A stretch of DNA of 64,000 nucleotides, from positions 1-64,000 of the forward strand of contig JACRMT010000013.1 of assembly GCA_016214855.1 (NCBI GenBank), read 5' to 3'. The stretch's first letter is position 1, and every line of letters begins with the position of its first letter. Source of the stretch: Nitrospirota bacterium. GTDB taxonomy: Bacteria > Nitrospirota > Thermodesulfovibrionia > Thermodesulfovibrionales > UBA6898. The translations under genes and the position numbers were made by a program. Positions 4,390 to 49,010 of the stretch are shown one piece after another. The notes below the pieces were generated by a model that worked only from the letters and a program-made list of their open reading frames with translations, was not told where the DNA came from and did no database searches.

Positions 4390-5244
4390 ATGGATAGTGC
4401 AAAAATGTGTCCTATCGTAAGCGAAAGGATTCTGGTTGCAACAGACGGCTCCGAATATAGCAAGGGAGCTATTCGGGAGGCCATCGGCTTTGCGAAGATA
4501 TGTTCAAGCAGGCTTTACATCATGTCTGTTGTGGAAGTGATAGCAGATGGAGAAACATCAACACAGCAGGTTGAGCAGGAGATGGAGGCAGCGGCCCAGA
4601 AACATCTTGATGCAGTGAAGGCTCAGGCGCTGAATGATGGTGTAACGTGTGAAACATTCATTTCTTATGGCGATCCCCATCAGAACATCGTGGACGAAGC
4701 TGCAAGGAGAAAGATCGATCTGATATTTATCGGCAGGCGCGGGACAACAGGGATGAAAAAACTGCTTATGGGAGAAGTGGCTTCAAAGGTGATCGGCCAT
4801 GCCGATTGCAAGGTCATTGTTGTGCCAAAGGCTGCTGTAATCGGCCCCAGGACTCTCCTCATTGCAACAGACGGTTCTGGACACAGTATCGCCGCTGCTC
4901 GCGAAACGGTCAAGATCGCGAAGAGATGCGGCAGTAACATTATTGTGCTCTCCTCCATGCGCTCAGAAGACGAACTGCCGGCTGCAAAGGCCAACATTGA
5001 CCAGGTCCTCTCAATGGCAAAGCAGGAGGAGATTCCAGCTGAAGGTATAACACCCCTGGGCCGGTCTAAAGATGTGATTGTCGAAACTGCCGGAGGTCGG
5101 GGCGCAGATCTGATCGTTATGGGCATACCGGTGAAGTCGGCCTTTCAGAAGATTTTTTCCGGGAGTGCCACGGAACAGGTGATAGGCAAGGCTGGATGTG
5201 CTGTATTGATCGTAAAAGGCGATGACTCGCCGGCTACCAACTAA
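4390..5244 (+). CDS. Universal stress protein, tandem UspA domains
   Basis: A 284-aa soluble protein with two UspA folds, about residues 11-146 and 155-276. Each starts with the usual strand (RILVATDGSEYS, TLLIATDGSGHS). The nucleotide-binding loop of the first domain reads GRRGTTGMKKLLMGE and keeps the G-x2-G-x9-G spacing. The second reads GIPVKSAFQKIFSGS and lacks the second Gly, so ATP binding may be confined to one domain. AGGAGG precedes the ATG, 27 bases after chrA. Co-transcription with chrA suggests a stress-response role; the specific function is unknown. Confidence 0.88.
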   Translation: MDSAKMCPIVSERILVATDGSEYSKGAIREAIGFAKICSSRLYIMSVVEVIADGETSTQQVEQEMEAAAQKHLDAVKAQALNDGVTCETFISYGDPHQNIVDEAARRKIDLIFIGRRGTTGMKKLLMGEVASKVIGHADCKVIVVPKAAVIGPRTLLIATDGSGHSIAAARETVKIAKRCGSNIIVLSSMRSEDELPAAKANIDQVLSMAKQEEIPAEGITPLGRSKDVIVETAGGRGADLIVMGIPVKSAFQKIFSGSATEQVIGKAGCAVLIVKGDDSPATN

Positions 5245-5256
5245 AGGAGGCTTATT

Positions 5257-5811
5257 ATGAAAGAAGTGACCGAGATGGCAGTAAAACTGATGGCAGCGTC
5301 GGCGCGGACAGCGCCGAAGGCTGGCGGCAAGGACTTTCTCGAGATCGTGGTGATCACAAAGGATGAGGACCTGAAAGCAATCGCAGAGTCGATGAAGGCA
5401 TACGCGCCGAAGAGCACGAACGAGGCCTTCTGGCTGAGGGACGCCTCGAACATCGAAAATTCCCAGGCACTCCTCCTGGTCGGTCTGGCAAAACCGGTGA
5501 CTGCGGGATATGACTGCGGCGCCTGCGGTTATCCAACCTGCGGTGAATTTGCAAAGAACAAGCAGATGACAGACAAGGAGATGGGGTACACCGGTCCGCA
5601 CTGCGTGATGAGGATGATTGACATCGGCGTTGCCCTCTCGTCAGCAGCAAAGACCGCGAGCATATTGAATGTGGACAACCGGGTGCAGCAGCGGGTCGGA
5701 GCTGCGGCACGTGCGATCGGCCTGATCAAGGGTGAGGTGGTCATGGGCATTCCGGTCAGCATAACCGGCAAGAGCATCTATTACGACCGGCAGACAGCAG
5801 CGAAACACTGA
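5257..5811 (+). CDS. DUF2148 ferredoxin-like domain protein
   Basis: A 184-aa cytoplasmic protein of the DUF2148 (ferredoxin-domain) family. Four cysteines, C87, C90, C95 and C116, sit in CGACGYPTCGEF and GPHCVMRM, an arrangement expected to hold an iron-sulfur cluster. The C-terminal half (KGEVVMGIPVSITGKSIYYD) is typical of the family. AAAGGAGG lies upstream of the ATG and the gap to the stress-protein gene is 12 bases, so it belongs to the chr operon. Its reaction is unknown. An electron-transfer or redox-sensing job beside chromate handling is an inference from position only. Confidence 0.8.
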   Translation: MKEVTEMAVKLMAASARTAPKAGGKDFLEIVVITKDEDLKAIAESMKAYAPKSTNEAFWLRDASNIENSQALLLVGLAKPVTAGYDCGACGYPTCGEFAKNKQMTDKEMGYTGPHCVMRMIDIGVALSSAAKTASILNVDNRVQQRVGAAARAIGLIKGEVVMGIPVSITGKSIYYDRQTAAKH

Positions 5812-31579: not shown

Positions 31580-31966
31580 TTAGATCTTCTTCATCTCGTT
31601 CTTGCAGGTACATTTGCCAGGGTTCTGGCTTATCGTGTCGCATTTGCACTCAGGCCCGCATGCACATGCATACTTGCCGGTTGCCTTGAAGGCCCGCTCT
31701 TTTTCCCACTTTTCTGCCTTGAGCATTACCTTTTCACCGTCAATCTTTGTCACCTTTGCCTTGACCATCTCCTTGTCGCAGGTGCAGTTGCCGGCATTTC
31801 TGGACATGGTCTTGCACGTGCAGCTGTCGCCGCAGTTGCAGGCAAATATCTCATCGCCGACCTTCAGATCCATCTTTGCCTTTGCAGCAGCAAAAGAGAG
31901 TGCAACAAAAGCCGCCATCACCATCACCATCACCATTACCATTGCCATAAGAATCAGCTTCTTCAT
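31580..31966 (-). CDS. Exported Cys-rich metal-binding protein, two modules
   Basis: A 128-aa protein with an export helix (about 4-25) and two copies of a strict six-cysteine module, C-x-C-x3-C-x-C-x9-C-x-C: one at about residues 43-63 (CNCGDSCTCK...GNCTC) and one at about 100-122 (CACGPECKC...GKCTC). Between them is a short strand-rich segment VKAKVTKIDGEKVMLKAEKW. The pattern suggests a metallothionein-like metal cluster outside the cytoplasm. The signal peptide contains an MVMVMVM run from a repeated ATGGTG hexamer, which offers several alternative ATG starts. It is the last gene of the leftward molybdenum-hydroxylase/NosL block and a paralogue of the gene at 47942. Confidence 0.72.
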   Translation of the reverse strand: MKKLILMAMVMVMVMVMAAFVALSFAAAKAKMDLKVGDEIFACNCGDSCTCKTMSRNAGNCTCDKEMVKAKVTKIDGEKVMLKAEKWEKERAFKATGKYACACGPECKCDTISQNPGKCTCKNEMKKI

Positions 31967-32088
31967 CGTCTATCACCTCCTTTCTCCGTCAACCCTAAAC
32001 TTATGATTATCAGGCTGTATCTAAAATCTATTGCATTTCGTCAAAACTGTCAAGAAGAACTTTTCCTCTTGTCTGACGGTCAGCACTG

Positions 32089-32976
32089 CTATTTCAGGAT
32101 CTCCCACATATCTTCAAAAGCTGCCTGAAGTGCAACGTCAAAGCTCCCGACAGCCCCGCCATGAGCCCTGACAAATTCTTCTGCGTCCTTTCTCATTTCA
32201 AAGGCCCACTTGCCCCGTATGGACATAACACCCTGCCTGTCGCCGCCGATCACCCAAAAGGCCTTCCTGGCATTGATCAGCTTTTTTGTCCCATAATCTC
32301 CTGCACCGATAAAACCCGCTGGCACGCCATAATTCAGTGCAAGATCTATTGCAGTGCAGTGGATGCTGCAGGTCCCGGTTTCGCCCGGTCCTTTCTTCTG
32401 CACGACAAGCATTCTGCTGAAATCGAATTTTCTCCTGTCCATACCGCAGTATTTACAGTCAGGATGGACCTGTATGTCGTTCTTTTTTGAATAGGCTGCA
32501 TGTTTTCTGCCCTGCGGCATGGTCACGTCACCGGCCATATCGCTGAATACAGTCTTCATCGCCTCGTCATAAGAAGCCAGCTTGCCGCCATGTTCCGCGA
32601 TGAATTTTTCAGCGGCAGTCCTCTCCGCAAACGCCCACTTTGCGCGCCTTGACATAATGCCTGTCCTGCCCCCTCCGATAACCCAGACCGCCTTCCCGGC
32701 ATCAACAAGTTTTCCTGTAGCATAGTCAGCCACCATCATGCCGGTTATCGTCTTTTCCCTGTGTGCAGCCATATCCACAGCCGTACAGCGAATACTGCAT
32801 GTCCCGCCCTTTGAGCCGCCGTCGTAAGCAAGCAGCATGCGGCCCATCAGATGCTTCTGCCTGTCCATACCGCAAATCAGACAGGCGGGATACTCCTTCA
32901 GATCATCGGGATGATTGTCGTTAACTGCAGCGATAAGGAGGCTGGCGATGCACAGAAGAAGCACGATCTTTCTCAT
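32089..32976 (-). CDS. Tandem NosL-like protein (two domains)
   Basis: A 295-aa exported protein with a signal peptide (1-17) and two NosL-like repeats of about 140 residues. Each repeat has CxxCGMD (C32/C35 and C174/C177), a GTCSIxCTA segment, YATGKLVDAGKAVWVIGG or YGTKKLINARKAFWVIGG, and a closing AHGG. NosL binds Cu(I) and helps mature nitrous-oxide reductase; two fused copies in one chain are unusual. There is no nosZ here. The start overlaps the MocA-like gene by 4 bases, so it is part of the molybdenum hydroxylase operon. A copper or molybdenum-site maturation role is inferred. Confidence 0.78.
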   Translation of the reverse strand: MRKIVLLLCIASLLIAAVNDNHPDDLKEYPACLICGMDRQKHLMGRMLLAYDGGSKGGTCSIRCTAVDMAAHREKTITGMMVADYATGKLVDAGKAVWVIGGGRTGIMSRRAKWAFAERTAAEKFIAEHGGKLASYDEAMKTVFSDMAGDVTMPQGRKHAAYSKKNDIQVHPDCKYCGMDRRKFDFSRMLVVQKKGPGETGTCSIHCTAIDLALNYGVPAGFIGAGDYGTKKLINARKAFWVIGGDRQGVMSIRGKWAFEMRKDAEEFVRAHGGAVGSFDVALQAAFEDMWEILK

Positions 32977-42615: not shown

Positions 42616-43515
42616 TTGTTAAGAACAGCTGCCATATTCCCCGGTCAGGGGTCCGAGTATCCGGGAATGCTCGCTTCCATAAAGAAGGCGCCGGTGACCG
42701 CTGAGATCTTCAGCAGGATCGGGCATGTTGCCAAAAGGGATATCCTTGAGGCTGCGCTGAAACATACGAACCATGGACTGAGCGATCCTGTGGTCTCCCA
42801 GCTCTCGGTCTTCGGTGCAAGCGCCTGCTACTGGCAGCTGCTCAGAAAACAGGAGGACTTTCAGTGTGTCACCGGCCACAGCCTCGGCTTTTATGCAGCG
42901 CTCTATGCATCCGGCGCTGTCACCCTGGAAGATTGTGCTGCCGTCATCATACATGTTCAGAAGGCAATAGAGGCGGTATCGAATAACAGGGCCGGGCTGA
43001 TGGCATCGATCATGGGGCTGCGAACAGAACAGGTTGAAGAGATCTGCGCAGGGCTTGACGATGTTTATGTTTCCAACGTGAACTCCGTTACTCAGACGGT
43101 CATTTCAGGCTGGAAAGACGCGGTTCGGTCAGCATGCAGCATGGCACTTGAGGACGGTGCACTTTCCGTAAAAGAGCTGTCCATAGCCTATCCCCTGCAC
43201 AGTCCTCTTATGCACGGCATAGAAGATTTGATCGGACGGGCTGTAACCATGCTGGGGATCAGAGAGCCGGAGATCCCGGTCATAAGCCACATTGACGGCG
43301 ACGTATTGCAGAGCGAAGGCATTGCCCGCGTGCTCGCTACACAGCTTACCCAAAAAGTGCTCTGGAGAGACACGGTAAAGGCTATCCGGCAGAGAGGCAT
43401 CAACCGTTTTGTCGAAGTCGGCCCCTCTGATGTTCTCTCAAAACTGGTCAGATGGATTGAACGCGACGCGGAATCTTTCAGGGCAGAGGAGCTGGTGCCG
43501 TGTCCGTTCTCGTAG
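42616..43515 (+). CDS. FabD-like acyl transferase
   Basis: A 299-aa malonyl-CoA:ACP transacylase-type enzyme. The N-terminal motif is AIFPGQGSEYPGML, the nucleophile is Ser89 in VTGHSLGFYAAL, and the later His region is IAYPLHSPLMHG. It would load malonyl or another acyl unit onto the carrier protein encoded two genes on. It starts with TTG at 42616, with GGAGAG 6 bases upstream; no ATG fits. The start of fabG overlaps its end by 16 bases. It leads an operon of lipid-type genes. Confidence 0.85.
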   Translation: MLRTAAIFPGQGSEYPGMLASIKKAPVTAEIFSRIGHVAKRDILEAALKHTNHGLSDPVVSQLSVFGASACYWQLLRKQEDFQCVTGHSLGFYAALYASGAVTLEDCAAVIIHVQKAIEAVSNNRAGLMASIMGLRTEQVEEICAGLDDVYVSNVNSVTQTVISGWKDAVRSACSMALEDGALSVKELSIAYPLHSPLMHGIEDLIGRAVTMLGIREPEIPVISHIDGDVLQSEGIARVLATQLTQKVLWRDTVKAIRQRGINRFVEVGPSDVLSKLVRWIERDAESFRAEELVPCPFS

Positions 43516-44234
43516 CACTCGTCACGGGCGGCACAAAAGGCATCGGCAGGGCCATTGCCCGCTCGCTTGCAGGCAAAGACATTCGGGTCTATATGAACTT
43601 TGCCTCTGACTCGCAGGCCGCTGAGGCAGCGCTCAGTGAACTGAATACTGACGGCAGTTCCGCGGCCGTCATACAGGCTGATGTGTCAGATCAGGAACAG
43701 GTAAATGCCATGATCGGGACGATCGTGCAGAACGAAGGCAGGCTCGATATCCTTGTGAATAACGCTGGCATCATCAGGGACGGCCTCCTCATGCTGATGC
43801 CGGACAGGAATTGGCACAAGGTCATAGAAGTGAACCTGAACAGCGTATACTACTGTTCAAAGTCAGTGCTGAGGCCCATGATCGGCAACAAATGGGGCAG
43901 GATCATCAATATCATTTCGCCGAGCGCTCTTATGGGCAGGGCAGGACAGACGAACTATGCGGCATCAAAGGGAGGCATACTCAGTTTTACCCGGTCATTG
44001 GCGCGCGAGGTCGGCCGGTACAACATCACGGTGAATGCAGTCTCTCCGGGTGTGATAGCAACAGAACTCACCAGAGACATGGATGAGAAGATCAGACAGG
44101 AGTTCATCTCCATGATCCCGGCAGGCAGGTTCGGAACTCCTGAAGAAGTGGCACAGGCAGTTTCATTTCTTGCTTCGCCTGAGGCAGGATATATTACCGG
44201 TGAATATATATCAGTTGACGGAGGACTTACCTGA
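43500..44234 (+). CDS. FabG-like 3-oxoacyl-ACP reductase
   Basis: A 244-aa short-chain dehydrogenase. The cofactor motif TGGTKGIGRAIA is at residues 9-20, then DILVNNAGIIRDG, and the catalytic Ser-Tyr-Lys lies in IISPSALMGRAGQTNYAASK. The C-terminus GYITGEYISVDGGLT is typical of FabG. It would reduce 3-oxoacyl-ACP with NADPH. Start is GTG at 43500 with GAGGAG upstream. Its TGA shares a base with the ATG of the carrier protein gene. Confidence 0.9.
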   Translation: MSVLVALVTGGTKGIGRAIARSLAGKDIRVYMNFASDSQAAEAALSELNTDGSSAAVIQADVSDQEQVNAMIGTIVQNEGRLDILVNNAGIIRDGLLMLMPDRNWHKVIEVNLNSVYYCSKSVLRPMIGNKWGRIINIISPSALMGRAGQTNYAASKGGILSFTRSLAREVGRYNITVNAVSPGVIATELTRDMDEKIRQEFISMIPAGRFGTPEEVAQAVSFLASPEAGYITGEYISVDGGLT

Positions 44235-44494
44235 TGGAAAGAGCAGCACTTGTTGAAGAACTGAAGGCATTGATTATAAAGAACCTGAAGCTGGAGGATA
44301 TGAGCCCTGAAGATATCGATGCTTCAGCGCCGCTCTTCGGGAGCGGACTCGGCCTGGACTCTATCGATGCCCTTGAACTGGTCGTCGGCCTCGAAAAGAC
44401 CTACGGCATCAGTATCCCTGATGAAGATGTCGGCAAAGAGGCCTTTGCATCAGTGAATGCCCTCGCTGACTACGTTATCAAGAGCAGAACATAG
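44234..44494 (+). CDS. Acyl carrier protein
   Basis: An 86-aa four-helix carrier protein. The phosphopantetheine site is Ser43 in GLGLDSIDALELVV. The stretch before it, FGSGLGLDS, and the acidic second helix are typical. It is distinct from a housekeeping AcpP in having DSID for DSLD and a longer N-terminal helix, as in secondary-metabolism and aryl-polyene-type carriers. It overlaps fabG by one base, and its neighbours are an acyl transferase, reductase and dehydratase, so it is dedicated to this pathway. Confidence 0.92.
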   Translation: MERAALVEELKALIIKNLKLEDMSPEDIDASAPLFGSGLGLDSIDALELVVGLEKTYGISIPDEDVGKEAFASVNALADYVIKSRT

Positions 44495-44501
44495 CCCTTC
44501 C

Positions 44502-44900
44502 ATGCGGCCTTCTGAGTATCTTCCGCACCGGTATCCTTTTATCATGCTCGATACGGCAGAGGTGATCGAAGAAGGCCGGCGGGCAAAGGGTTCCCGGCAG
44601 ATAACCATCAATGACCCCATCGTGCTTCCTGACGGCACACTGCCCCAGGTCTATATTATTGAATCCATGGCTCAGGTGTCAGGCATTGCAAGCGGCAGAA
44701 AAGGACGCTCACTCTTCGCAGCCATCAGCGGCCTGAACTTCCACGGGACGGTCAGGGCAGGCGATACGCTTGAGGTGGAGAGTATCGTAGAGCGCAGCAT
44801 AGGCGGCATGTATATTTTTATTGCCCGCGCCTCTGCTTCAGGGAAGGTTATTGCAGACGGGGGGATAGTTCTTCACTTTGATGAGAACCAGAGAGGATAA
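44502..44900 (+). CDS. FabZ-like 3-hydroxyacyl-ACP dehydratase
   Basis: A 132-aa hot-dog-fold protein. The catalytic His is in LPHRYPFIMLD, and the Glu/Gln helix is in YIIESMAQVSGIASG. The remainder (FHGTVRAGDTLEVES) fits FabZ/FabA-like dehydratases and the related hot-dog proteins of aryl-polyene clusters. I start it at 44502; a frame from 44457 would overlap the carrier gene and add 15 non-family residues. It lies 7 bases from the carrier stop and overlaps the transporter gene by 20 bases. Confidence 0.85.
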   Translation: MRPSEYLPHRYPFIMLDTAEVIEEGRRAKGSRQITINDPIVLPDGTLPQVYIIESMAQVSGIASGRKGRSLFAAISGLNFHGTVRAGDTLEVESIVERSIGGMYIFIARASASGKVIADGGIVLHFDENQRG

Positions 44901-47265
44901 GCTTCCGTTCATCTGGGCCCTTGCCAGGAGGTTTCCGATCATCACCGTGCTGGCATCGGCCATTGCCGTGCTGGCATCTGTCGGCGCAATACTCGGCGCG
45001 AACTTCAATACCGATGTCACACGCCTGATCCCTGCAGACGCCCCAAAGACCTCGCTCTATTTTGATCTTGTCGATAAGACCGGCGGCATGGATAAGGCAT
45101 ATATCGTCTTCAGTTCCGACCGGATAATGGACCATGTCGAAAAGATAGAAGCGATCGGCCGGGAGATCGGCTCATCCCCTATGGTGACAAAGGTCTCCTG
45201 GAAAATATCCGGAGAGGCAAAGACATTTCTGAGAGACGTCTATGCAAAAAAAGCCCCCCTGCTTCTGTCACCGGGCGAGATGGAGGAGTTCACCAGGAAA
45301 CTCAGTCCCGGGGGCATGGAACGGGAACTCGAAAAGACCCGCCAGAGGCTGCTGCTGCCCGGCAGCCAGGAAGGCCTGACCATGGCCGATCCCCTGAACT
45401 TCTTTGAGATGTTCCTGCCGCATATGCGCCTTGCTGATGGTTCCTTTGATCCCTCTTCAGGCTATTTTCTGACCCCTGATAAAAAAAATCTGATCATGAT
45501 CCTTACGCCTGCCGGCTCGCCGCGCGATATTGCATTCTCGGAGAAGTTCATCAAGAGCACGGGATCAATATTGGAACGATACAGGGGCACTGACCTCACT
45601 GCGGAGATAACCGGCAGCCACGCTATCACACTCCATGAGGCATCTGCCATGAAGAGGGAGATCGTCATGAATACGGTTTCCTCTCTCGCGGGCGTAATGC
45701 TCATATTTCTGATATTTTTCAGGTCGCTGAAAGGACTGCTCTATGTGATGTTCCCGGTCGTTACCGCGATGATCATGACCCTCGGCATAACGCTTCTCTT
45801 TTCCAATGCCCTTTCAGAGGTGACCGGCGCATTCGCCGGCATGCTCGCCGGACTGAGCGACGATCTGGGCATTGTGCTTTACGTCAGATACCTCGTGACC
45901 GCAGAAGAACATACAAACCCTGCCGAACGCATGGACAGGACCATCAAGGCCGTGTACCGCGGCATAACCACCGGCGCCCTTACCACCGCAATAACTTTTC
46001 TGCCGATGGTCTTCTCGTCCTTCAGGGGGATCCGTGAACTCGGCCTTCTGACCGGCATCGGCATGCTCCTCTGCTGGCTCCTGCTCTTCACCCTGGCATC
46101 GCTCACCATAAAGCCGTCCTCAGGCAGGTTTATCGAGATCCGTGCGCTCAGGAATATTGCCTTATATGCGTACCAGAGGCCTTTGCGCATCATCTGCCTG
46201 TTCTTCTTCTCAACCTTAGCCCTGGCCTTTTTCATCCCCCGCATCCAGTTCATGGGAGATATCACCAAACTCGGTACTGATGACAACAGACCGCGTCAGG
46301 CATTTGAGCGGCTGAAGGATACCTACATCAAAGAACAGGGCGTCTTTATTACAGACATCTCCATGGAGATGGAATCAGCTCTGGTAAGAAGTGTTGAGAT
46401 AAAGGAGGCACTTGCAAAGAATTTAGAACATATAACAACAGCAGGAGATATCCTGCCGCCGCAAGCACGGCAGAAAAAGAATCTCGCAGCTCTTGCTGAG
46501 CTTGATCCGCAGAGGGTCGTCCGGGATTTTCAGAAGATCGCCGCAGAAAAAGGGTTTGATGTTTCAGAGTTCCGGGTATTCACGGAAGGTCTGCATACCA
46601 TACTGCGCAACAGGGAGACGATCACGCTCAGGGATGTTGCGCCGATCAAAGACGTGCTTGAAAGGCTGCTGATCAATGAGGACGACCAGTGGAGGATCAT
46701 TGTTACGGGCAATCTGAGAAAGGACGCGCCCCTGTCAGCGCTGGACGGATACACGCATACCGGGCCTGCCTTCATACGGCAGGAGCTTATTTCGATCCTG
46801 AAAAAAGATACGGCACTCATCGGCCTTATTGCGCTGGCATTCGTGAACATCGTCCTGTTCGTCGATTTCAGAAAGCTGGGCCTTGTGCTGCTCTGCCAGG
46901 TCCCGGTCATTGTCAGCATCATCTGCACACTCGGCATCATGGGCATGACCGGCATAAGCCTCAACTTCATGAATGCAATCATCTTTGTGCTGCTCTTCGG
47001 CATCAGCACAGACTATACGGTCCACCTTTTGCATCAGTATCGTGCTGACAGGGACATCGGCACGACCTTTCTCCAGACCGGCAAGGCTGTACTCGTAGCA
47101 GGTCTTACAACCGTTGCTGGAATCGGTTCTATCGGTTTTTCCACATACAAGGGACTGGCGACCATGGGCCAGGTGGCATCCATCGGCATTACCCTCTCTA
47201 TCGTCCTCTCACTGACCCTTATTCCGGCACTGCTCAGACTGTATGAAGGCAGAACAAACCGATGA
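44881..47265 (+). CDS. MMPL/RND-type lipid exporter
   Basis: A 794-aa inner-membrane protein with two RND halves. Helix 1 is at about 17-37, followed by a periplasmic loop (FNTDVTRLIPADAPKTS), five helices from about 260-420 with AGLSDDLGIVLYVRY, a second loop, and five more helices from about 640 with LLFGISTDYTVHLLHQYRAD. The paired Asp in SDDLG and the STDYT motif are MMPL proton-relay features. Family members export lipids, hopanoids or aryl polyenes to the outer membrane. A TTG three bases earlier is possible, but ATG 44881 is preferred. It overlaps genes on both sides. Confidence 0.88.
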   Translation: MRTREDKLPFIWALARRFPIITVLASAIAVLASVGAILGANFNTDVTRLIPADAPKTSLYFDLVDKTGGMDKAYIVFSSDRIMDHVEKIEAIGREIGSSPMVTKVSWKISGEAKTFLRDVYAKKAPLLLSPGEMEEFTRKLSPGGMERELEKTRQRLLLPGSQEGLTMADPLNFFEMFLPHMRLADGSFDPSSGYFLTPDKKNLIMILTPAGSPRDIAFSEKFIKSTGSILERYRGTDLTAEITGSHAITLHEASAMKREIVMNTVSSLAGVMLIFLIFFRSLKGLLYVMFPVVTAMIMTLGITLLFSNALSEVTGAFAGMLAGLSDDLGIVLYVRYLVTAEEHTNPAERMDRTIKAVYRGITTGALTTAITFLPMVFSSFRGIRELGLLTGIGMLLCWLLLFTLASLTIKPSSGRFIEIRALRNIALYAYQRPLRIICLFFFSTLALAFFIPRIQFMGDITKLGTDDNRPRQAFERLKDTYIKEQGVFITDISMEMESALVRSVEIKEALAKNLEHITTAGDILPPQARQKKNLAALAELDPQRVVRDFQKIAAEKGFDVSEFRVFTEGLHTILRNRETITLRDVAPIKDVLERLLINEDDQWRIIVTGNLRKDAPLSALDGYTHTGPAFIRQELISILKKDTALIGLIALAFVNIVLFVDFRKLGLVLLCQVPVIVSIICTLGIMGMTGISLNFMNAIIFVLLFGISTDYTVHLLHQYRADRDIGTTFLQTGKAVLVAGLTTVAGIGSIGFSTYKGLATMGQVASIGITLSIVLSLTLIPALLRLYEGRTNR

Positions 47266-47945
47266 GCAGCAAGTTCTGCTGCCTGATCCCTGCCTTTAAT
47301 GAAGAGAAGAGGATCAGCGAAGTTATCGCAGGTGTTCGGAAAGTCATCCCTGAGGTGATCGTGGTCGATGACGGCTCGCATGACACCACTGCCGAACTGG
47401 CCGAGAAAGCAGGCGCTCATGTGATCAGACATGAGCAGAATTGCGGCAAAGGTATGGCTCTCAGGACCGGCATCAGCCATGTGCTCAAACAGGGATATGA
47501 TGCTGTCATGACGGTTGACGGCGACGGCCAGCATGCACCTGCCGAAATAGCAGATTTTCTTGCTGCATTTGCATCCGACAGAGGTGATATAATAATAGGT
47601 ACAAGGCTCTGGGACAGGGCGGCAATGCCGTTGTATCGTTATATCCCGAACCGGATCGGAGTATTCTGCATCTCGATGGCTGCGGGCTGCCGGATCGATG
47701 ACACACAGTCAGGCTTTCGCCTTTACAAAAGGGAGGTGCTGGAGACAGTGCAGCTCGAGACAACCGGCTTTGAGACAGAGACAGAGATACTGATCAAGGC
47801 AGGACAGGCCGGGTTTCGGATCTACAGCATGCCTGTCTCGGCGATCTATGACAGCGACTATACTACAAACTTCAGACCGATTCGGGACTTTTACCGGATC
47901 AGCATACTTTTTTTGAAACTGACCATCTTCGGAGGTGTGAAATGA
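47262..47945 (+). CDS. Family 2 glycosyltransferase
   Basis: A 227-aa cytoplasmic transferase of the dolichol-phosphate-mannose-synthase type. The nucleotide-sugar motif is CCLIPAFNEEKRISEVI with VVDDGSHDTTAELAEKAG, and the metal-binding DXD equivalent is VDGDGQHAP. Later come DDTQSGFRLYKREVL and FETETEILIKA. It lacks the C-terminal membrane helices of some relatives but has a hydrophobic end. It overlaps the exporter gene by 4 bases and the next gene by 4 bases. It may glycosylate or transfer sugar to the exported lipid; the sugar and acceptor are unknown. Confidence 0.87.
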   Translation: MSSKFCCLIPAFNEEKRISEVIAGVRKVIPEVIVVDDGSHDTTAELAEKAGAHVIRHEQNCGKGMALRTGISHVLKQGYDAVMTVDGDGQHAPAEIADFLAAFASDRGDIIIGTRLWDRAAMPLYRYIPNRIGVFCISMAAGCRIDDTQSGFRLYKREVLETVQLETTGFETETEILIKAGQAGFRIYSMPVSAIYDSDYTTNFRPIRDFYRISILFLKLTIFGGVK

Positions 47946-48373
47946 AAAAGATCTTCAGGACAGCACTCATGCTGGCAATTGCGATCGGACTTACAGCCAC
48001 TGCGTCATGGACAGCGGACACGGCGACAAAAGGAGCAGATGTCTATTTCTGCGACTGCGAAGAAGGCTGCCCCTGCCCTTCACCCTATCTTGAGCCGGGT
48101 ACCTGCGAATGCGGCCTTGCGCTTGCAAAGGGAAAGGTGATCAGGATCGACAGGGAGAAGGACAGGATATATCTCTGCAAGTGCGACGACGACAAGTGCC
48201 CATGCGCATTCGATCCGAAAGACCAGACCAAATGCGGCTGTAACTATAAGGTGAAGGAATATCCTCTCAAGGGCAAGTATGTCTGCAACTGCGGCCCTGA
48301 CTGCAAATGCAACACGGTTTCGGTCAGTCCCGGCAAATGCTCCTGCGGCGTACCGCTGAAGAAGGTGGAGTAA
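47942..48373 (+). CDS. Exported Cys-rich metal-binding protein, three modules
   Basis: A 143-aa protein with a signal peptide (about 1-25) and three copies of the six-cysteine module C-x-C-x(3,4)-C-x-C-x9-C-x-C: CDCEEGCPCP...GTCECG, CKCDDDKCPC...TKCGCN and CNCGPDCKC...GKCSCG. Modules are separated by short basic strands (LAKGKVIRIDREKDRIYL, KEYPLKGKYV). It is the paralogue of the two-module protein at 31580. The even Cys spacing suggests a zinc or copper cluster outside the cytoplasm, in the manner of metallothionein. The start overlaps the glycosyltransferase stop as ATGA, so it belongs to the lipid-export operon. Confidence 0.75.
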   Translation: MKKIFRTALMLAIAIGLTATASWTADTATKGADVYFCDCEEGCPCPSPYLEPGTCECGLALAKGKVIRIDREKDRIYLCKCDDDKCPCAFDPKDQTKCGCNYKVKEYPLKGKYVCNCGPDCKCNTVSVSPGKCSCGVPLKKVE

Positions 48374-48482: not shown

Positions 48483-48737
48483 CTATCTGTAGACGTCCTT
48501 TCTATGCCTTATACGGAAAATAGTGATGATCCTTTGATTTTCATCTACAGAATAAACAACCCTGTAATCGCCAACGCGAAGCCTGCATCTGTCTTCACCT
48601 TTAAGTTTCTTTGCATGCGGATAAGGGAAAGGCTCTCCTCTCAGCGACAATATGGCCGTATCAATCTTGAGAAATATCTGGTCTGGCAGGCTGTCGAGTT
48701 CTTTTTTCGCGGATTTCTTAAGAGAAATCCTATACAT
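48483..48737 (-). CDS. RelE-type toxin
   Basis: An 84-aa basic protein: MYRISLKKSAKKELDSLP, ILSLRGEPFPYPHAKKLKG, and RLRVGDYRVVYSVDENQRII ending IFRIRHRKDVYR. These are the conserved RelE helix, substrate loop and closing strands, with the catalytic Arg and the C-terminal His/Arg. Its start overlaps the antitoxin gene by 8 bases. Intact and probably functional. Confidence 0.85.
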   Translation of the reverse strand: MYRISLKKSAKKELDSLPDQIFLKIDTAILSLRGEPFPYPHAKKLKGEDRCRLRVGDYRVVYSVDENQRIITIFRIRHRKDVYR

Positions 48738-48957
48738 GAAGGCGAGCTTTTCTCTTGCGGCTGTATGCTTCGTAATCTTCTGACGGCTCTGCTACACGGT
48801 CTTCAATTGCCTTCAGATCAAGGAGGTCCTCCAGCAGATCATTGACCCTTGCGAGTTCCCGCATGTCGAGGACTGCGGCGACCTTTTGGCCCTTCACATC
48901 GGTTAAATACTGTTTGACTTTGATCTGTTCTTCCTTTTGCTTCATCGCAACAGACAT
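48730..48957 (-). CDS. Antitoxin partner of the RelE toxin
   Basis: A 75-aa protein starting at 48957 (MSVAMKQKEEQ), with AAAAAGGGGGAAAC upstream. The longer frame from 49101 would read through a remnant of a Cys-rich gene and is not credible. The N-terminus (QIKVKQYLTDVKGQKVAAVL) resembles a short DNA-binding strand of Phd/PHD-like antitoxins, and the acidic middle (ELARVNDLLEDLLDLKAIED) would cover the toxin. Confidence 0.75.
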   Translation of the reverse strand: MSVAMKQKEEQIKVKQYLTDVKGQKVAAVLDMRELARVNDLLEDLLDLKAIEDRVAEPSEDYEAYSRKRKARLHV

Positions 48958-49010
48958 TGTTTCCCCCTTTTTGTAACCCGAATTTATTATATCACAGGGA
49001 TTACTACGCC

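Follow-up and report, generated by a model that had tools for sequence, protein, structure and literature searches.

What is the role of a small exported protein packed with cysteines whose gene comes last in a lipid-type operon, and is its task tied to that of the genes before it? The question is raised by P0001, encoded in the window, by which we mean the whole 64,000-nucleotide stretch of Nitrospirota bacterium DNA that was analysed. Its gene closes the following run of features.

42616..44900, + strand: FabD-like acyltransferase, FabG-like reductase, acyl carrier protein and FabZ-like dehydratase (Pfam and NCBIfam)
44878..47265, + strand: MMPL/HpnN-like RND-type exporter (Pfam MMPL, E 4e-37; HpnN-like)
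47262..47945, + strand: GT2 glycosyltransferase (PF00535, Pfam E 4e-25), directly upstream of the P0001 gene
47931..47935, + strand: GGAGG Shine-Dalgarno-like site within the GT2 3' end, 6 bases 5' of the P0001 ATG; the same TTCGGAGG is seen in the sister species G002 and G003
47942..47945, + strand: ATGA stop-start overlap of GT2 with the P0001 gene (sequence; kept in G002 and G003)
47942..48373, + strand: gene for the exported three-module cysteine protein P0001 (ORF; kept under purifying selection in two species of the genus)

The genes of the lipid-type operon (42616-47945, + strand) include no ketosynthase, and in G001, a genome of the same genus, a thioesterase-like gene apparently lies between dehydratase and MMPL (locus L088). 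Convergent to the cysteine gene is a ParE-like toxin gene (PF05016) with a small likely antitoxin gene just upstream of it (48483-48960, - strand); synteny between the window and the sister species ends right after the cysteine gene. No RNA or tRNA features were found in the window.

The ATG of P0001 shares four bases with the GT2 stop, as the earlier note had observed, and this overlap, together with the TTCGGAGG site, persists across the window's genome, G002 and G003 despite 13-19% nucleotide divergence. The relatives of P0001 in these two same-genus genomes are 91% and 88% identical to it, and comparison with them gives dN of 0.046-0.068 and dS of 0.56-0.77, hence dN/dS of about 0.06-0.12. 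Close relatives with the same overlap and a ratio this low indicate that the gene is real and under selection. Promoter and terminator scans near the gene yielded no more sites than shuffled sequences and are therefore uninformative on separate transcription. Given the arrangement, P0001 is probably co-translated with GT2 in the window's species and its two sisters, and co-transcription of the two genes would be expected.

The product, translated from its ATG, has 143 residues and contains 18 cysteines in nine CxC pairs, laid out as follows.

47942..48016, + strand: approximate Sec-type signal peptide, MKKIFRTALMLAIAIGLTATASWTA (basic n-region, hydrophobic core and small residues before cleavage, judged by eye; helix 5-19 in the model)
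48050..48112, + strand: module 1, CDCEEGCPCPSPYLEPGTCEC (cysteines 37, 39, 43, 45, 55 and 57 invariant in a 32-row alignment)
48176..48241, + strand: module 2, CKCDDDKCPCAFDPKDQTKCGC, with one extra residue (alignments); missing from two-module paralogues; between predicted strands 3 and 4
48284..48346, + strand: module 3, CNCGPDCKCNTVSVSPGKCSC, the most conserved module, whose second half aligns with HMBD

The protein starts MKKIFRTALM, without a twin arginine, and the features visible by eye suggest a Sec-type export signal. The modules span residues C37-C57, C79-C100 and C115-C135, each with an even number of cysteines. Modules 1 and 3 have the identical spacing C.C...C.C.........C.C (CxC-x3-CxC-x9-CxC), whereas in module 2, with CKCDDDKCPC, the first two CxC pairs are separated by one residue more. 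An earlier description of three strictly equal modules behind a signal peptide thus holds for the modules and the signal but not for the equality of spacing. Two or three such modules were seen in none of 200,000 shuffles of the mature P0001 sequence.

Across 32 aligned homologues from several phyla the module cysteines are invariant or nearly so. The three-module gene is present in 31 of 230 genomes of the class, with exactly one copy in each of the 31. A scan of species genomes gave 38 loci, mostly in Nitrospirota and otherwise in Desulfuromonas, Desulfobulbaceae, a Myxococcota-placed 'Deltaproteobacterium', Acidobacteriota and Verrucomicrobia, plus a few weak ones; since this pattern-based scan picks up members in which two conserved peptides are retained, these loci give a minimum for the spread. 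In several homologues (L044, L055, L060, L070 and L071) a lipobox after the hydrophobic stretch replaces the cleavable signal, which supports an envelope location common to the family. No Pfam or NCBIfam model has a cut-off that any tested member reaches, sequence searching found no solved structure (best E 0.5) and a check for plasmid spread of the family gave no match. Among papers on periplasmic metallothionein or Nitrospirae metallothioneins, nothing on the P0001 family was found.

The genome also encodes three two-module paralogues, one in the window (P0002) and one each on contigs C7 and C18, in which a stretch of about 30 residues replaces module 2 of P0001.

31580..31966, - strand: two-module paralogue P0002 (128 aa), preceded by a double NosL gene; it closes a Mo-hydroxylase / XdhC / MobA-like / NosL gene run

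The two-module protein and the duplicated NosL occupy 31580-32976 (- strand), and their pairing, seen across genera, is the better conserved of the associations. Of 13 loci with flanking sequence, nine have a double NosL gene within 1.5 kb of the two-module relative. As NosL is a Cu(I)-binding periplasmic lipoprotein and Cu(I) chaperone (PMC7558416), this neighbourhood supplies an argument for copper, though an indirect one. At locus L009 another exported cysteine-rich protein (5040-5756, + strand), with CxCGKxCxCxHC repeats ahead of a beta domain, is encoded near a two-module gene, a two-component system, MsrA, MsrB and a small exported YHS-like protein, a set that suggests a metal or oxidative stress island.

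Few metallothioneins are known from bacteria, most of them cytosolic, and they have about 50 residues. One of them, MymT, has a mass of 4.9 kDa (PMC7558416). Like SmtA/BmtA (PF02069) and MymT, P0001 is small and cysteine-rich, has CxC motifs and would be expected to form thiolate clusters; unlike them, it has an apparent export signal and three repeats. In Pfam scans at E up to 10 the PF02069 profile matched no family member, and MymT matches two paralogues at no better than E 0.006-0.009, far below the cut-off. The plant PEC metallothionein (PF02068) is the best-scoring Pfam model for all 13 of 13 three-module members (best E 0.003), but its score against P0001 is 10.5 bits where the cut-off is 31.8, and the match probably reflects cysteine composition. 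Csp1, a proposed envelope Cu(I) store, is likewise exported and rich in cysteines; it uses the Tat route, folds as a four-helix bundle and binds 13 Cu(I) (PMC7558416). In contrast to its Tat signal and four helices, P0001 has a Sec-like signal and, in a moderate-confidence model, a predicted all-beta core.

There is also a partial likeness to the heavy metal binding domain HMBD (PF19335; YTCPMHPEV..DxPGxCPxCGMxL). Members of the P0001 family likewise start with aromatic-x-Cys and end with PGKCxCGM(x)L, but where HMBD itself has its CPMHP half, with Met and His, the aligned members carry CxCGxxCxC instead. The HMBD-like part is the second half of modules 1 and 3, PGxCxCG, which in many homologues reads DKPGKCxCGMDL. 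Aligned to HMBD with hhalign, module 3 scores 24.7 against a maximum of 14.9 in 150 cysteine-preserving column permutations, the score of module 1 is reached by one of 150 permutations and module 2 does no better than permuted controls (40 of 150). Single-protein HMBD matches, at E 0.002-0.02, are below the cut-off (best 18.3 bits, compared with a Pfam gathering cut-off of 23.6), and P0001 itself is not listed among the HMBD matches in Pfam scans. In L074 (5962-6300, + strand) the first module (VCPDCHTMAMKAGKCEKCGKDM) is HMBD/zinc-ribbon-like, resembling HMBD over its whole 28-position profile, and the other modules are of the CxC type, so that this protein is a possible evolutionary intermediate.

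Structure prediction gave models of moderate confidence (mean pLDDT 74.8 for P0001 and 79.8 for P0002) with the same strand order in both, module 2 lying between strands 3 and 4. Strands are the only elements of the P0001 model besides the signal helix at 5-19. A Foldseek search found no fold match with E below 1. VIA-align gave Z up to 3.5 to Tudor/SH3-like barrels, a weak similarity confined to residues 30-110, and we consider such values too weak to claim a Tudor/SH3-like identity.

On this evidence we regard P0001 as probably an exported, metallothionein-like metal-binding protein that buffers soft metals in the envelope. The export signal of P0001 is followed by three cysteine clusters that short predicted beta-strand stretches connect. 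In the periplasm, or at the membrane for the lipoprotein homologues, the CxC pairs would form thiolate clusters that bind soft metal ions. The bound metal would most plausibly be Cu(I), possibly Zn or Cd. P0001 would then act as an envelope metal buffer or store, and the two-module relatives may perform the same task beside NosL. That soft metals are bound by thiolates is suggested by the nine CxC pairs, which are conserved throughout the family and lie on an exported protein. It is these pairs, the partial HMBD similarity and the NosL neighbourhood that lead us to place exported metal buffering first, disulfide or structural roles second and service to the lipid pathway third. A soft-metal role in the envelope is thus the best reading of the common envelope or metal-protection task that had been suggested for this protein and its two-module relative.

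In the oxidising periplasm the cysteines may be paired in disulfides instead, and P0001 would in that case be a structural, knottin-like or a redox-buffering envelope protein rather than a metal binder. Its export and its 18 cysteines, even in number within every module, would suit such a role. However, CxC pairs clustered with Gly, Lys and Asp between them are typical of metal-thiolate sites, and both the HMBD-like half-module and the NosL neighbourhood of the two-module relatives also speak against disulfides; we consider this explanation unlikely.

Genomic context bears on the third possibility, that P0001 serves a lipid or glycolipid pathway, for instance by protecting or metallating, as an envelope partner, the machinery of the MMPL-exported product; this would explain its coupling to GT2. 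Nine genomes of the genus and family have an MMPL exporter (at least 59% identity) followed by GT2, yet the cysteine gene lies 3' of GT2 in only three of them, those of the window, G002 and G003; the other six have something else behind GT2. In four species of the same genus (G001, G004, G005 and G007) the single-copy three-module gene is instead directly behind a LemA-TPM-TPM operon (L041, L042 and L013-L016). The LemA-TPM operon is present in the window's genome, G002 and G003 too, with no cysteine gene behind it. MMPL/GT2 orthologues are nearby in one of the 38 loci from several phyla, where loci from genome searches had 1.5 kb flanks and came from draft genomes with many contigs; this one, L040, belongs to the sister clade and its record is probably G003 itself. 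Beyond near relatives the three-module gene has no recurrent neighbours: 62 neighbours scanned with Pfam comprised chemotaxis, regulatory and housekeeping genes, and no recurring metal gene was found among the neighbours scanned. From GT2 to LemA-TPM to varied settings, then, the three-module gene is kept at one copy per genome while its neighbours change.

Service to the lipid pathway draws support from the overlap and TTCGGAGG site kept in three diverged species, and from the strong divergence that sets the clade's protein apart from other family members and gives the impression of adaptation to a new setting. Against it stand the six MMPL-GT2 genomes with something else behind the pair, the absence of MMPL/GT2 near homologues in other genera and phyla, and the LemA-TPM genes that precede the gene in four same-genus species. 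It is, in our judgement, quite improbable even for P0001, and as a general feature of the family a functional tie to MMPL/GT2 is rejected. Of the earlier proposal of an operon with GT2 and MMPL, the operon-like arrangement survives, in three species, and the functional tie does not; nor do homologues consistently sit downstream of MMPL/GT2, co-occurrence being absent outside this clade of three sister species. That the gene follows lipid genes is a chance feature, local to one small species group, and not a general rule, and the task of P0001 would appear to be independent of the lipid-type operon.

Least probable of the alternatives is that P0001 works with NosL to supply Cu(I) to one specific cuproenzyme, as a dedicated delivery protein and not a general buffer: two-module relatives do adjoin double NosL genes at nine of 13 loci, but neither NosL nor a cuproenzyme recurs near the three-module gene among the 38 loci, and 18 cysteines suggest capacity, not delivery of one ion.

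P0001 and its GT2-linked clade sit on a very long branch of the family tree (1.98 changes per site), and P0001 and its clade lack a His (position 65) found in at least 90% of the rows of the 32-row alignment; the task of P0001 may therefore have shifted locally. The GT2-linked gene may be the orthologue of the TPM-linked one in a new position or may represent an old lineage of its own, and it would have become attached to the end of the lipid-type operon in the window's species and its two sisters.

For the family as a whole we put forward metal buffering in the envelope, and this context result cautions against inferring function from one operon. A more elaborate scenario, which we offer only tentatively and hold to be doubtful, is that these are exported metallothioneins descended from HMBD: a small beta-barrel bearing its cysteine clusters as loops, with an extra cluster between strands 3 and 4, buffering Cu(I) in the periplasm and encoded by a single copy per genome across Nitrospirota and several other phyla. 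If this is true, they would have a role, that of periplasmic Cu(I) buffer, for which Csp1-type proteins have hitherto been the main examples. A single-copy family of exported, multi-module proteins, present in Nitrospirota and scattered through Desulfobacterota, Myxococcota, Acidobacteriota and Verrucomicrobiota, would represent an additional kind of envelope metal buffer.
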